Positions 113 to 14,733 of a DNA stretch of 64,000 bases are shown here, in pieces. Below the pieces are notes generated by a model, which saw only the letters and a program-made list of their open reading frames with translations, was not told where the DNA came from and ran no database searches. Source of the DNA: Stromatinia cepivora (taxonomy: Eukaryota > Ascomycota > Leotiomycetes > Helotiales > Sclerotiniaceae). Position 1 is the stretch's first letter. The number at the start of each line of letters is the position of its first letter. The stretch is from the NCBI GenBank assembly GCA_014898415.1, contig RCTD01000005.1, positions 310,001 through 374,000 on the forward strand. Reading direction: 5' to 3'. The position numbers and the translations under genes were made by a program.

Positions 113-3100
113 ATGGCACCCATTGCCGTTTCTACAGAACATTCACCGGACCCTGCAGTTTCGCCTGATTCCAGAAACTCTCTCTCCTCCGTGACGACCA
201 CTTACGATGATACCCTTCGTTTTTATTTGAATGGCACGCGAGTTGTCCTCGATGACATGGACCCTGAGATTACCCTACTTGAATACCTTCGCGGCATAGG
301 CCTGACAGGAACAAAGCTAGGGTGTGCAGAGGGAGGATGTGGAGCTTGCACAGTGGTTGTTTCTCAATACAATCCAACCACCAAGAAAATATATCATGCA
401 AGCGTGAACGCATGCTTAGCACCACTGGTCAGTGTCGACGGGAAGCACGTTATAACAATTGAAGGAATTGGGAATACAAAGAGGCCGCATCCTACGCAAG
501 AGAGAATTGCGAAAGGAAATGGTAGTCAGTGTGGGTTCTGTACGCCAGGCATAGTTATGAGTTTGTATGCTCTTTTACGGAATGATTCGAATCCCTCGGA
601 GCATGAAGTAGAAGAAGCATTCGATGGAAACTTATGCAGGTGTACAGGATACCGCCCAATTCTTGATGCAGCCCAGACTTTTAGTTCTGGTGCTGCATGT
701 GGCAAATCTAAATCAAATGGTGGAGGTGGATGTTGTATGGAAAACGGCGGAGGAAGTGGTGGGTGCTGTAAGAACGAATTAAAGGATGATCAACCTATCA
801 AACGGTTCACACCTCCCGGATTCATCGAGTATAACCCGGATACTGAGCTTATATTTCCACCGCCACTTATGAGACATGAATTCAAACCGTTGGCTTTTGG
901 GAATAAAAGGAAGAAGTGGTATCGTCCAGTAACTATGGAACAGCTTCTAGAGATTAAGAGCGTGTATCCATCGGCCAAAATTATTGGTGGAAGTACGGAA
1001 ACGCAAATCGAGATTAAGTTCAAGGCTATGCAATACACAGCTTCGGTGTTTGTTGGGGATATTCCCGAATTAAGACAATACTCATTCAAGGATGACCATC
1101 TAGAGATTGGGGGTAATGTGATATTGACTGATTTGGAGTCCATTGTCCAAGAAGCAGAGAGGCATTATGGGCCTGAAAAGGGTCAAGTATTCAAGTTAGT
1201 AGATCTATTTGTCTCAAACTTCTCCTTAGTCTTGTTGCCATTGATACTTTCATACGTACCAATGGAAATCTGCCATCCTTTTCTCTCTAGTAGAGTAACA
1301 ACAAATGAAAGTCATAGACAACAAATCCAGTTACTATATGATACTTCCTTCATACTAACGACATCTATAGGGCAATTCATAAGCAATTGAAATACTTTGC
1401 TGGTCGACAAATCAGAAATGTCGGTACACCCGCAGGAAATTTAGCTACTGCTTCTCCTATTTCTGATCTCAATCCTGTATTCGTTGCATCGAATGCTATC
1501 CTAGTCGCAAAGTCTTTAGGCAAGGAGACGGAAATTCCCATGTCTGGATTCTTCAAAGGTTACAGATTGACTGCGCTCGCTCCGGATGCAATCATTGCTA
1601 GCATTCGTATACCCGTGACGCAAAAGGGAGAATATTTAAGAGCGTACAAGCAATCGAAACGGAAGGATGATGATATTGCCATTGTCAATGCTGCTCTTAG
1701 AATTTCCATCGATGATTCTCACGTTGTGACTAGCACAAGTCTGGTATACGGAGGAATGGCTCCAACCACAATTGCGGCTAGAAAGGCTGGTGCTTATTTG
1801 TTGGGCAAGAAGTTTACAGATCCTGCAACATTAGAGGGAACTATGAATGCTCTAGAAGAAGACTTTAATCTCAGCTTTAGCGTTCCTGGAGGAATGGCGA
1901 CTTACCGGAAATCCCTTGCATTCGGCTTTTTCTATCGATTCTACCACGAAATTTTGTCCAGTTTCGAGATCAAAGATTTGGAAGTAGATGCACAAGTCGT
2001 ACCGGAGATTGAACGCATAATATCTTTTGGTAGGGAAGATAGAGAAGCCACTGTTGCTTACCAACAGAATGTTCTCGGAAAAGCAAGTCCACACGTAGCT
2101 GCATTAAAGCAAACTTGTGGTGAAGCACAATATACTGATGATATACCGGTCCAGAAGAACGAGCTATATGGATGCTTAGTTCTATCGACAAAAGCTCATG
2201 CGAAAATCATGAGTGTTAACTATGCTCCTGCAATGGATTTGCCAGGTGTGGTTCAGTATGTTGATCATACAGACATGCCAAGTCCCGAGGCCAATTATTG
2301 GGGAGCACCTGTCTGTGACGAAACATTCTTTGCCGTCGATGAAGTATTTACAACAGGCCAACCCATTGGTATAGTTCTCGCTGATAGCGCAGCCCATGCA
2401 ACTGCAGGAGCACGAGCTGTCAAGGTTGAGTATGAAGACTTGCCGGCGATATTCACGATGGAAGAAGCTATTGAAAAAGAAAGTTTCTTCGATCACTACC
2501 GGTACATAAAGAAAGGAGAACCAGAAAAGGCGTTTGAAGAAGCAGATCATGTCTTTAGTGGTGTTTCTAGAATTGGTGGACAAGAGCACTTCTATTTAGA
2601 AACCCAAGCTTGTGTAGCGATACCTAAAATCGAGGATGGAGAAATGGAAATCTGGTCTGGAACCCAAAATCCAACAGAAACGTAAGTGCAATCAGATATT
2701 GTCAGGTTCTTTAGCTAACAATATGTCAGCCAAACATATGTTGCGCAAGTTTGTGACGTTGCTGCAAACAAAGTTGTGAGTAAAGTCAAGAGACTTGGAG
2801 GTGGATTTGGTGGAAAAGAGACTCGTTCCATACAACTATGTGGTATCGTATCCCTTGCCGCCAAAAAGACTGGTAGGCCAGTTCGTTGTATGCTCAATCG
2901 TGATGAGGATATGATCACATCCGGTCAAAGACATCCTTTCTTGTCTCGGTGGAAAGTTGCCATTAATAAGGATGGTAAGATCCAAGCACTCGATTTAGAT
3001 ATGTTCTGCAATGGAGGGTGGACTCAAGATCTTTCTGGAGCTGTACTGGATCGATCATTGTCACATTCCGATAATTGCTACATGATTCCTAATATTCACG

Positions 3101-4455
3101 TCCGAGGTCGTGTTTGCAAGACGAATACGATGTCGAATACTGCATTCCGAGGATTTGGTGGACCGCAAGGTTTATTTATGGCAGAATCGTACATTGAGGA
3201 AGTTGCGGACCGTCTCGGTATGCCAGCGGAAAAACTAAGAGAAATAAACTTCTACAAGGCGAACGAGAAAACACATTTCAACCAAGCTCTAAAAGACTGG
3301 CATGTACCACTAATGTATAAGCAAGTTCAGGAAGAATCGGATTATGCCGCAAGGCGTGAGGCTATCACAAAATTCAACGCAGAACATAAGTGGAAAAAGA
3401 GAGGACTTGCAATTATACCTACAAAGTTCGGTATTTCCTTTACAGCACTTTTTCTCAATCAAGCTGGAGCATTGGTACATATATATCACGATGGATCCGT
3501 TCTTGTAGCCCACGGTGGTACTGAAATGGGACAAGGTCTACATACAAAAATGATGATGGTAGCAGCTGAAGCACTTGGAGTTCCATTGTCCAATGTATTT
3601 ATCTCGGAAACCGCCACCAATACAGTAGCCAATACGTCATCTACTGCTGCGTCGGCCTCATCTGATTTGAATGGATATGCTATATTCAATGCCTGTGCTC
3701 AAATCAATGAACGACTTGCTCCATATCGAGAGAAATTGGGTCCAGATGCGACAATGAAACAGCTAGCTCATGCCGCATACTTTGATCGTGTCAACCTTTC
3801 CGCAAACGGATTCTATAAAACTCCAGATATTGGTTATACTTGGGGTCCAAACACTGGTCAAATGTTCTTCTACTTCACACAAGGTGTTACAGCCTCAGAA
3901 GTCGAAATCGATACTTTAACTGGTGATTGGACATGTCTCCGTTCCGATATCAAAATGGATGTTGGTCGCTCCATCAATCCGTCCATTGATTATGGACAAA
4001 TTGAAGGTGCCTTTGTGCAAGGTATGGGATTATTTACCACTGAAGAATCCCTTTGGTTCCGCGCCGGCCCAATGGCAGGACAACTAGCAACTCGAGGACC
4101 TGGTGCATATAAAATTCCGGGATTTAGAGATATTCCTCAAGAGTTTAATGTTTCTCTACTCAAGGGTGTGGAATGGGAAGAATTGAAAACAATTCAGAGA
4201 AGTAGGGGAGTGGGTGAGCCGCCATTATTTATGGGTAGTGCTGTGTTCTTCGCTATCAGAGATGCCTTGAAGGCTGCTAGGAAGGAGTATGGCGTGACAG
4301 CGGAAATTGGGGAAGATATCAAGGATGGAGGATTGTTGAGATTAGAAAGTCCAGCAACGCCAGAGAGGATCAGGATTAGTTGCGCAGATCCGATTTTGAA
4401 GAGGGCGGAAGTGAAGCCGAAGGAGGGTGAGAAGAGTTTCTTTTTAAGTATTTAG
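113..4455 (+). CDS. xanthine dehydrogenase (purine hydroxylase I)
   Basis: Molybdo-flavoenzyme that oxidises hypoxanthine to xanthine and urate in purine catabolism. Exons by splice sites: 113-1194, 1371-2681, 2730-4455 (1372 aa, the usual length for fungal enzymes). Domains in order: 2Fe-2S ferredoxin-like cluster (GCAEGGCGAC near residue 70), second 2Fe-2S cluster (CGFC near 142, CRCTG near 175), FAD domain (IIGGSTETQIE near 283), then the molybdopterin domain with GGGFGGKE near 820, FRGFGGPQG near 937, GGTEMGQG, and RGVGEPP with the catalytic Glu near 1294. Intron 1 has branch site ACTAAC at 1354-1359. Without splicing, frame 1 stops at 1390 and the conserved AIHKQLKYFAGRQ segment would be lost, so the intron is real. 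A Cys/Gly-rich linker (residues about 194-222) sits between the Fe-S and FAD domains. An aldehyde oxidase is the only alternative and is less likely given the motifs. Confidence 0.95.
1195..1370 (+). other. intron 1 of the xanthine dehydrogenase gene
   Basis: Donor GTTAGT at 1195, acceptor CTATAG ending at 1370, branch site ACTAAC about 12 bases before the acceptor. Joining phase-2 AA to G restores Lys and leads into the conserved IHKQLKYF segment. Intron 2 is 2682-2729 (GTAAGT...CAG). Confidence 0.9.
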
Positions 4456-10519: not shown

Positions 10520-10945
10520 GATGGGGAATAGGTCCAGGGCTCAATAATGATGCGTGGGAAATATGATTAAAGGTGGAGGAAGAGAGATGTGTCGATTATG
10601 CGATAATAATGAATGGCGATTAAGGGGGATGCGATCGATTACTCGTTTTTTAACGATGGGGGCATTAGGAATAAGGTCAGGACCAAAACCCATACTTGGT
10701 AAAATAATCCTTTAATTCCATATACTCTTAATTTCATAGGTAACATTACCAAAATCAACTCGAAAAAAAACACACAAAGCACCTTAGTTAAAGAAGACCT
10801 CGTTTAAAAGTGCCCCTCCCCCCAACCAAGCTGTGACTCACACCCATCCATCCATCCATCCATCCATCCATCCATCCACCCACCCCACTCCCCCAATATA
10901 AGCCAAATTTCCAGCAATAACGCATCAAAATTCGCAATCAAAAAA
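10520..10945. other. intergenic region before the tRNA gene
   Basis: Holds the 3' end of the cupin gene transcript and a CATC tetranucleotide array (about 10848-10885). A TATAAG box-like sequence lies near 10898, roughly 48 bases before the tRNA. No gene is visible. Confidence 0.6.
10848..10885 (+). repeat. (CCAT)n microsatellite
   Basis: About nine CATC units followed by CACC variants, ending in CCCACTCCCCC. Confidence 0.85.
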
Positions 10946-11074
10946 AGCAAGTTGGCGCAGTGGAAGCGCGCCGGGCTCATAACCCGGAGGTCCCCAGATC
11001 GGTAAGTATCCACTTTGCTCACAATTGATACGTGAGCATCCACACTGACATTCAGTAGAAACTGGGACTTGCTA
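10946..11074 (+). tRNA. initiator tRNA-Met (CAU) with a 57-bp insertion in the T-loop
   Basis: Parts 10946-11001 and 11059-11074 fold as a complete 72-nt tRNA. The acceptor stem AGCAAGT/ACTTGCT has 7 of 7 pairs with A1:U72, and discriminator A is at 11074. The D-arm is GCGCAGTGGAAGCGC. The anticodon arm CCGGG-CTCATAA-CCCGG has anticodon CAU and the three G:C pairs of initiators. The T-arm CCCAG-ATCGAAA-CTGGG has A54 and A60, as in eukaryotic initiators. The T-loop is broken after G57 by 57 bp (11002-11058), which interrupts the Pol III B box while the A box is intact. A T-rich run (11085-11100) follows and could be a Pol III terminator. All stems pair perfectly, which argues against simple decay. 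Confidence 0.85.
11002..11058 (+). other. GT-AG intron-like insertion inside the tRNA T-loop
   Basis: Begins GTAAGT (perfect spliceosomal donor) and ends CAGTAG, with a CTGAC branch-like site about 10-14 bases before the end. Exact removal restores ATCGAAA. Inside it lies a perfect 7-bp hairpin TGCTCAC/GTGAGCA around the loop AATTGATAC, flanked by direct repeats ATCCAC. The location is not the canonical 37/38 site cut by the eukaryotic tRNA splicing endonuclease. Removal by the spliceosome is inference. Confidence 0.7.
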
Positions 11075-11084
11075 TGTGCAGACG

Positions 11085-11100
11085 TTCTTTTTTTGTTTTT
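11085..11100 (+). terminator. T-rich run, possible Pol III terminator
   Basis: TTCTTTTTTTGTTTTT begins about 11 bases after the discriminator base of the tRNA, a typical place for Pol III termination. Confidence 0.6.
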
Positions 11101-12704: not shown

Positions 12705-14733
12705 TCATTCCTCCAGGCTGTGGAATCGTTCATGAGCTGGCATGGCAAATGCGGGCATCATCGCACCACATATGTGACAGGTCTCACGACTGCCTAACTC
12801 ATCTTCATCCTCCCAAAGATCTTGCTCGTCTCCTGTATCTTGCGAGATGCAGACTACATCCTCGGAGCCCGTAGTAGGATTAGAGATGTGCTCTGTCTTA
12901 ATAGACTCACTTGGAGGTTTTTCATACCTATTTATAACAAAGTCAGGTGGAATATCACGGTCCTCAACTTTCCATTCTTTGAGAGTGGCTTCTTGTCGCT
13001 TGAACATAAGACCAATGTTTCTACCACCTCCAGATCCATCTTCACTCGCGGCTTCAACCATATTGGTTACTCCGATGTTGACCAAACTTAAATTCCAATC
13101 CGACCTCTGTGGATGCAATTTTCGGAACATAGGAACCAATGTATCTTGGATCAGTCGCTCGACAATACTATCCATACCATCTTTCAAGTTGAAGACAAAA
13201 TTCGGTAGAGGTCCAGATCTCGATATCCTGTTAAAGCTTCGTGTTCTTGTGCCATCTGCATTCAACGGCGGACGAGGCCTGGTAGACAGTCGTATTGTTT
13301 TGGGGTAAGCAATCCATCTTTTTGATGGTAAATCAGATTCTTCATCGTCCTCAAGTAGGTCTTGATACATTCTATTTAGTAGGCTGGTCGCAAGCATTCG
13401 AAGCTCTTCCATTAATTTAGACATAGTATCGAGCTTGATATATGAATCCTCGATTGATATTTGGGATGGTACCTTTCGAGCATCCTTTACATCTGTATCG
13501 TCGCGACCATTGATCAGTCCCCAAGCCTTACCTCCAATACCCCTTTCTGCCCCAGATCCTCCCAGAATGTTTTCCAGTGTGTCAGGACCAATGCCAGCAA
13601 AGAGACGCACATTACGGACAGTAACAGATTCTTTCGTGCCACCATAAATTAGCCCACTTTCAAAGTCGGCCGGACGTGATAGAACATGGTTCCGAATACG
13701 TTGAGACATTTTGAACCCAATACCAGGTATTTTACCTATATCATGACTATCAATGAATGTTGTGACATTGCTTTGTAGTCCATCATCATTGGGCAAAACT
13801 TCATAGGGTGGAAGAAGAGTTGTTTGTCCTTTTGGTTTATGAAGGTTGCCTACCAATTTGCTTAAAAGTTTATTCGTGGATATGCCAACAGTCGAAGTGT
13901 AGCCCTTTTCCTCTAGACTCAATCTTAAATATTGGGCAAGGTGTGAACCCAAAATCAACCGGGTAAGTAAATCGATATCACTATTCGGGGTTGCCGAATT
14001 CGATAGATAGTGAGGGGATACTTCGCCGCCTGGCTGCAAGTCGGGGTAACCGTGACCAGCAATCCTCGTCGCATTAAAGGTAAACCCCGCGGTAGGATCA
14101 TTACGGTTCAGTTGGAGGAACGAGTGGGTCAAATCGTTTGGATTGAGTAGTTTCTGGTTGTAGTCGACAATATCTGTGACGTCCATGAACACTTCATCGA
14201 ATCCTAGTCGTTCAACTTTTCCCGACCAACTAAACTTTTCCAAATGTTTGTATAGCATTTTTGATGCATCTCGGAATCGGCCCAATTCCTCTCCCAAGAC
14301 AATCACAACATCTGGACAGAGTTTCTTGGCTTCACTGATTAATTGCAATTTACTAAGACCACGGCGCCGAGCTTCATAATTGCAAGTGACGATGATTTGT
14401 TTCTGAGGTCATTCTTAGAACTTGCGATATACTATTTTGAATTGACTTTGGTAATAAATGAGTCTTACCTGCTGCACAGCCTTTCATTGCGTCAGCTATG
14501 TTTCGCAGATCAGAGAGAGGAATTCAGAGTTTACCAAGGGCACTGATTTTAACGCAGGATTCTCATTTTCGAAGACAGACGCGTAAAAGCAGTCATAATC
14601 CTTAAACAACGGTTAGAATAGCTACTTTTTGAGTGACGTGTTTCTTTTTCTTTACGAAAATATCATGGATATAGAGATCCTAATGGGGCTGACTAACAAA
14701 ATGTATGATTATCCTATGATCCTTTCTTGCCAT
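12705..14733 (-). CDS. DNA polymerase iota (Y-family translesion polymerase)
   Basis: Error-prone polymerase that bypasses damaged template bases. Exons 14733-14698, 14600-14535, 14480-14469, 14402-12705 (603 aa). The spliced N-terminus reads HFDYDCFYASVFE (first metal Asp residues 13 and 15), then VPLAVQQKQIIVTCNYEARRRG, the conserved fingers/palm start of the iota/eta group. LGFDEVFMD supplies catalytic Asp107/Glu108. VGISTNKLLSKLVGNLHKPKGQT and the helix-hairpin-helix DIGKIPGIGFKMSQRI follow, then the little-finger domain with PKTIRLSTRPRPP. The C-terminus has CHICG...AHERFH, a C2H2 ubiquitin-binding-type zinc finger. Exon 3 is only 12 nt. Arrangement and length fit fungal Pol iota better than Rad30/eta, but I give no symbol because naming varies. 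Confidence 0.9.
14469..14480 (-). other. 12-nt micro-exon of the polymerase iota gene
   Basis: Encodes Ala-Val-Gln-Gln between introns 14481-14534 (GTAAAC...AAAG, CTGAC branch) and 14403-14468 (GTAAGA...CTCAG). The four residues complete the conserved PLAVQQ motif that relatives carry, which supports the exon. Confidence 0.85.

Follow-up and report, generated by a model that had tools for sequence, protein, structure and literature searches.

The window, by which we mean the whole 64,000-nt stretch of DNA analysed here, corresponds to positions 310001-374000 of contig C5 in an assembly of one genome (55.67 Mb in 48 contigs), and the searches described below covered that assembly. On its forward strand, the window carries an initiator tRNA-Met gene in two parts. 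Exon 1 (10946-11001, 56 nt), recognized by direct reading and by ARAGORN, comprises tRNA positions 1-57 with a CAU anticodon, and the same sequence is found in all four genomic copies of the gene. Exon 2 (11059-11074, 16 nt), recognized in the same two ways and by alignment of the exons, comprises positions 58-73; because these positions were counted back from the discriminator base, the insert is placed between positions 57 and 58. The insert itself (11002-11058, 57 nt) has the form of a spliceosomal-type intron according to its sequence, ARAGORN and intron scoring. It starts with a 5' splice site, GTAAGT (11002-11007), that fits the donor profile of coding introns in the same genome, contains a branch-site-like CTGAC (11045-11049; sequence and intron scoring) whose branch adenosine at 11048 lies 10 nt from the intron end, and closes with the tandem 3' splice site CAGTAG (11053-11058). 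Thus, the insert described in an earlier note on this DNA, with its donor, its branch-like site, its AG end and its place at 57/58, was found as described. Within exon 1, the intact sequence TGGCGCAGTGG at 10953-10963 fits the A-box consensus, and GATCG at 10997-11001 forms the 5' half of the B box, with the intron lying between it and the 3' half. A T7 run resembling a Pol III terminator was located by a scan for downstream T-runs at 11088-11094, 13 nt past the tRNA end.

The surroundings of the gene are AT-rich (30.6% GC for the window). A CCAT/ATCC tandem repeat occupies 10844-10879, immediately 5' of the tRNA gene. At a distance on one side lies a xanthine-dehydrogenase-like gene (113-4455; Fer2, FAD_binding_5 and MoCoBD domains), and at a distance on the other lies a gene for a Y-family DNA polymerase (12705-14348; IMS). 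For one protein encoded in the window, the closest matches with a species name come from Botrytis narcissicola (84%), Botrytis elliptica (83%), Ciborinia camelliae (82%), Monilinia fructicola (80%) and Sclerotinia borealis (80%), which places the host fungus in the Sclerotiniaceae or very close to that family.

Eukaryotic initiator tRNA-Met is characterized by an A1:U72 pair, three G:C pairs in the anticodon stem, A54 and A60, and A20. All of these features can be read directly in the window copy, and the joined exons, 72 nt in length, were folded by ARAGORN into a tRNA-Met(CAT) cloverleaf. The outer parts therefore make a eukaryotic initiator tRNA, as the earlier note had held. The program called only the spliced form: none of the four unspliced genes was recognized as a tRNA, and neither was a version of the window gene that keeps the three extra nucleotides, TAG, left by use of the first AG of CAGTAG. 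When run on the genomic sequence, ARAGORN overlooked all four initiator genes, and an Rfam scan at gathering scores overlooked the one in the window. This suggests that annotation pipelines may overlook such genes too.

Whole-genome DNA and pattern searches found four initiator tRNA genes, each on a different contig: the window gene on C5, L002 on C10, L003 on C14 and L004 on C21. All four carry an insert at 57/58. Uninterrupted initiator genes elsewhere, which would count against a working split gene, were sought in two ways. A pattern of 27 nt taken around the anticodon arm, with up to three mismatches allowed, found none in the genome, and the joined exons (72 nt), used as the query in a genome DNA search, returned the same four genes, with each match ending at nucleotide 56. 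These four are therefore very probably the only initiator tRNA genes of the genome, as judged from its sequence.

We then compared the four copies. All 72 exon columns of the alignment are invariant, in contrast to 18 of the 59 insert columns, and the invariant insert columns fall mainly at the donor, the branch site and the 3' end (Fisher p = 4e-20 for exon against intron invariance, a rough figure since exchange of sequence between the copies is possible). Any two of the introns differ at 20-25 of the 47-56 sites available for comparison, or about 40% of aligned sites, and none of the 12 comparisons between the flanks of the four loci revealed detectable similarity. Invariant exons between diverged introns and flanks look like the pattern expected from purifying selection on a functional RNA from which the insert is spliced out, although gene conversion among the exons could also help to keep them identical. 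Frozen exons beside diverged introns and flanks argue against pseudogenes and against a recent insertion. The suggestion that the window copy is a pseudogene of very recent origin is thus not supported, because its exon sequence is shared without a single change by four loci with dissimilar flanks. It could also be supposed that all four genes are dead or little used and that an intact initiator gene is merely absent from the assembly, which, at 48 contigs, may be incomplete. However, perfect exon conservation on four different contigs, set against diverged introns and flanks, and the failure of both searches to find an intact copy make this highly improbable.

The same comparison bears on the proposal that an introner-like mobile element was recently inserted into the initiator genes. 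The occupation of one fixed position in four genes could be taken to favor such an element. However, introners are expected to occur as many near-identical genomic copies, whereas the four inserts differ from one another at about two sites in five, and a genome DNA search with each of the four as query found no further copies. This search skips very common words, so that a very abundant family could escape it. The introner proposal of the earlier note, which had suggested looking for such copies, thus seems scarcely credible, at least for a recent event.

If the inserts are removed by the spliceosome, then they should resemble the introns of protein-coding genes in the same genome. The four inserts (57 nt in the window gene, and 53, 53 and 58 nt) share a GTAAG donor (GTAAGT, GTAAGC, GTAAGC and GTAAGA), a CTRAC branch site and a YAG end, with 10, 10, 12 and 12 nt from the branch adenosine to the intron end. 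For comparison, we used 24 kinase exon pairs, 18 of which yielded candidate introns with mostly GTAAGT donors and YAG acceptors. Seven of these candidates (45-65 nt long, and differing from the profile by no more than 15 aa in protein length) were kept for the scoring profile, and the remaining 11 were excluded as long, poorly placed or ambiguous. Actin and sugar-transporter loci did not enter the profile. The seven coding introns are 50-58 nt long, and their nearest branch-like site lies 9-15 nt before the end. With this profile, whose seven introns were chosen by an EM procedure that favors a shared motif, the four tRNA introns scored 18.6-19.1 bits and the seven coding introns 15.9-20.0 bits. 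None of 200,000 random fixed-length inserts drawn from the window reached the lowest tRNA-intron score. The window contains 2,947 GT..AG segments of 50-60 nt, and the top score among them belonged to the tRNA intron itself; five others reached the coding minimum of 15.9, and none of them reached the lowest tRNA-intron score. All four tRNA introns thus show the donor, the length, the branch site 9-15 nt before YAG and the combination of conserved signals with a divergent interior that mark U2-type introns, and the GT-AG, spliceosomal look attributed to the insert is borne out by scores within the range of coding introns. In contrast, self-splicing group I or group II introns span hundreds of nucleotides with a catalytic core, and these inserts measure 53-58 nt. 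No family reached its gathering score in the Rfam scan of the window.

The choice of 3' splice site is less clear-cut in two of the four introns. The window and L002 introns end in CAGTAG, so that an earlier AG stands 7 nt from the branch, and the L003 and L004 introns have no such tandem-AG ambiguity. An upstream CAG is usually the preferred acceptor. In the window gene, splicing at the second AG (11058) would produce a T-loop of the normal 7 nt and splicing at the first would leave 3 extra nt; use of the upstream CAG in the window or L002 intron would produce a 10-nt T-loop. Among the coding introns, that of L071 reads as skipping an AG 4 nt from the branch in favor of one at 10 nt. In fungi, branch-to-acceptor distances of 6-36 nt are given in the accessible part of PMC5832005, and on this range the earlier AG may be the one used in the window and L002 genes.

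A quite different possibility is that the inserts are ectopic tRNA introns, cut by the tRNA splicing endonuclease (TSEN) and joined by a ligase, as happens outside position 37/38 in the red alga Cyanidioschyzon merolae. Such introns, including some in the T-arm, are described for that alga in the accessible parts of PMC3978253 and PMC9602550, and the present genome contains two matches to tRNA_int_endo (PF01974). An endonuclease of this type would call for an intron at 37/38 or for a bulge-helix-bulge at the junctions. However, the inserts lie at 57/58 and no common junction fold was found, either in a consensus of three of the four precursors, which yields no covarying pair, or in the lone introns, all four of which were folded: the folds differ, and one intron has no stable structure by itself. 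In addition, the invariant intron letters sit mainly at spliceosomal signal positions. Canonical introns of the same genome, such as those of the tRNA-Thr genes L024-L026, likewise interrupt nuclear tRNA genes, but they lie at 37/38 in the anticodon loop, measure 7-28 nt and by reading lack the GTAAG and CTRAC signals, whereas the initiator introns lie in the T-loop, measure 53-58 nt and carry both. We therefore regard cleavage by TSEN as very unlikely.

The folding of the lone introns also decides the standing of a structure pointed out in the earlier note, an internal 7-bp hairpin flanked by ATCCAC repeats. Both are present in the window intron, where 11016-11022 pairs with 11032-11038 and ATCCAC occurs at 11008-11013 and 11038-11043. 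However, the structure is peculiar to this copy, with a folding energy of -12.9 kcal/mol as compared with -2.8, 0.0 and -4.5 in the other three. Because those three introns do not have it, the hairpin and the repeats were set aside as functional parts.

The tRNA-Thr(AGT) genes showed a heterogeneity of their own. By reading, L009, L010, L011, L024, L025 and L026 have identical exons, with inserts of 0, 7, 13 or 28 nt at 37/38, and the intron-bearing ones were mislabelled or missed by ARAGORN.

We also asked whether other tRNA genes are split in the T-loop. A pattern search for this arrangement in other tRNAs hit seven places in the genome and one in a reversed control, and ARAGORN recognized none of the seven as a tRNA in either spliced or unspliced form. 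A genome search with RF00005 scored 63 of 3,161 candidates; this model is ill suited to T-loop splits, and the search is therefore uninformative on other tRNAs. Pattern scans for the initiator arrangement in viral and prokaryotic collections gave no match, a result that is uninformative on its distribution among fungi.

The position of the intron introduces questions concerning transcription. The B box is interrupted after GATCG, as had been claimed, and the A box/B box spacing of a type 2 Pol III promoter is lost. In none of the four genes was a replacement B box of comparable score found over the 400 bp counted from the gene start. This is a blunt test, because its profile derives from elongator tRNAs and awards even the B box of the spliced initiator no more than 4.5 bits. 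One-mismatch matches to GWTCRANNC do occur in this range: the window gene has one at +370, L003 has two, at +150 and +333, and L004 has one at +289, whereas L002 has none. Downstream, a T5-T7 run like those of Pol III terminators begins 11, 13, 14 or 15 nt past all four initiator genes; a run of at least five T starts within 0-15 nt at 3.4% of random places in the same loci and at 7 of 30 control tRNA genes. Upstream, TATAWW with at most one mismatch is present between -65 and -20 in two of the four initiator genes, as against 29 of the 30 controls. The site in the window, TATAAG at 10897-10902, 49 nt upstream of the tRNA, is a weak TATA-like candidate, and nothing convincing emerged from a search for a stronger TATA at the initiator genes. 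A TATA element does not, therefore, obviously compensate for the split B box. The TFIIIC B-block family PF04182 gave no match in the genome, with two candidates scored. Because the B boxes of the control tRNA genes are still canonical, this probably reflects limited sensitivity rather than loss of TFIIIC.

Based on these features, transcription by Pol III, with a weakened or alternative TFIIIC contact, appears most likely. The earlier note had raised the possibility of a tRNA transcribed by Pol II, whose ends would be trimmed afterwards. The split B box agrees with this, and Pol II transcripts are the normal substrate of the spliceosome. However, the A box is intact, the T-runs that follow all four genes point to Pol III, and spliceosomal introns are said to occur in the U6 snRNA of some fungi, which is a Pol III RNA. 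Pol II transcription thus seems unlikely.

In the course of this comparison, we observed a second T-arm-like hairpin 14-31 nt past the tRNA 3' end, before the T-run, in 7 of the 30 control tRNA genes (L017, L018, L019, L021, L022, L023 and L038). Five of these are Gln and one is Arg according to ARAGORN, and L038 is Arg-like by reading. The hairpin has a 5-bp stem, varying in sequence with pairing kept, and a 7-nt loop (for example TTTGAAG, TTTGAAT or TTCGACC). L013 matches weakly and Gln L016 and Arg L020 not at all, against a background of 12 of 930 windows of sequence. The hairpin may represent an extragenic B box, or else an element of the trailer.

Taken together, the position and boundaries of the intron, the constraint on the exons, the intron signals and the failure to find an intact copy are supported by the sequence. 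We consider it highly probable that these are working initiator tRNA-Met genes, most likely transcribed by Pol III, and that the intron at 57/58 is removed by the spliceosome. In the mechanism that we propose, RNA polymerase III would most likely transcribe the gene, and the spliceosome would then excise the short GT-AG, U2-type-like intron, with GTAAG as donor and CTRAC as branch point. Splicing would restore the 7-nt T-loop A54-U55-C56-G57-A58-A59-A60, and modification of this loop would presumably wait until then. Since every initiator gene found carries an mRNA-type intron, the start of translation would depend on the machinery of mRNA splicing.

A bolder reading can be formulated, which we put forward only tentatively. 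The initiator tRNA of this fungus, and perhaps that of the entire family, might always be produced by way of the spliceosome, from transcripts that carry a split B box and are made by Pol III under a rewired promoter, so that initiation would be obligately tied to the spliceosome. Proper folding of the T-loop and m1A58, at the residue directly after the intron, might then arise only after splicing, and the intron might serve as a quality gate or control point. If these introns are indeed spliceosomal, then they would represent a third class of eukaryotic tRNA intron, and one whose removal is needed for every protein made. Further questions would then follow, namely how a tRNA precursor made by Pol III is recognized by the spliceosome, by what route a gene whose B box is broken comes to be transcribed, and whether initiation of translation is limited by the capacity for splicing.

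On the accepted view, eukaryotic tRNA introns lie at 37/38 and are the province of the tRNA endonuclease, and a few algae add ectopic bulge-helix-bulge introns. Full-text literature was searched for a spliceosomal intron in a tRNA gene, mostly outside subscription papers and partly by title or abstract, and none was described among the matches listed, in agreement with the earlier note, which knew of no such case. The tRNAscan-SE 2.0 paper, in its accessible text, limits eukaryotic tRNA genes to one intron and handles noncanonical introns for archaea, and the accessible main text contains no word beginning with "spliceosom".

The closest parallels come from other small RNAs and from an alga. 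U6 snRNA is transcribed by Pol III, and spliceosomal introns in the U6 snRNA genes of fungi have reportedly been described by Tani and Ohshima in 1989 and by Canzler et al. in 2016, so that they too would be mRNA-type introns in a small structured Pol III RNA. However, the initiator intron interrupts a tRNA, in the T-loop and inside the B box, and does so in all four copies found, and the single U6 match in the present genome is contiguous. According to the accessible part of PMC5832005, no small structured RNAs other than U3 snoRNA and U6 snRNA were known to contain introns frequently, and the U3 introns are normal spliceosomal introns with GT-AG ends and an RCTRAY branch. They thus resemble the initiator introns in their signals and in residing in a structured non-coding RNA. 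However, S. sclerotiorum and B. cinerea have both intron-bearing and intronless U3 copies according to the same text, whereas no intronless initiator tRNA gene was found here. In C. merolae, the accessible parts of PMC9602550 and PMC3978253 describe ectopic tRNA introns that likewise lie in the T-arm and interrupt the internal promoter boxes. Pol III tRNA genes with such interrupted boxes are believed to depend on a TATA element upstream and on a T-stretch (PMC3978253, accessible part), and Pus4 is unable to act on pre-tRNA that carries a T-arm intron (PMC9602550, accessible part), which suggests that in the present fungus, too, splicing would need to precede T-loop modification. However, the introns of C. 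merolae are, in those same texts, bulge-helix-bulge introns removed by the tRNA splicing endonuclease, whereas the initiator introns carry spliceosomal signals and share no common bulge-helix-bulge.
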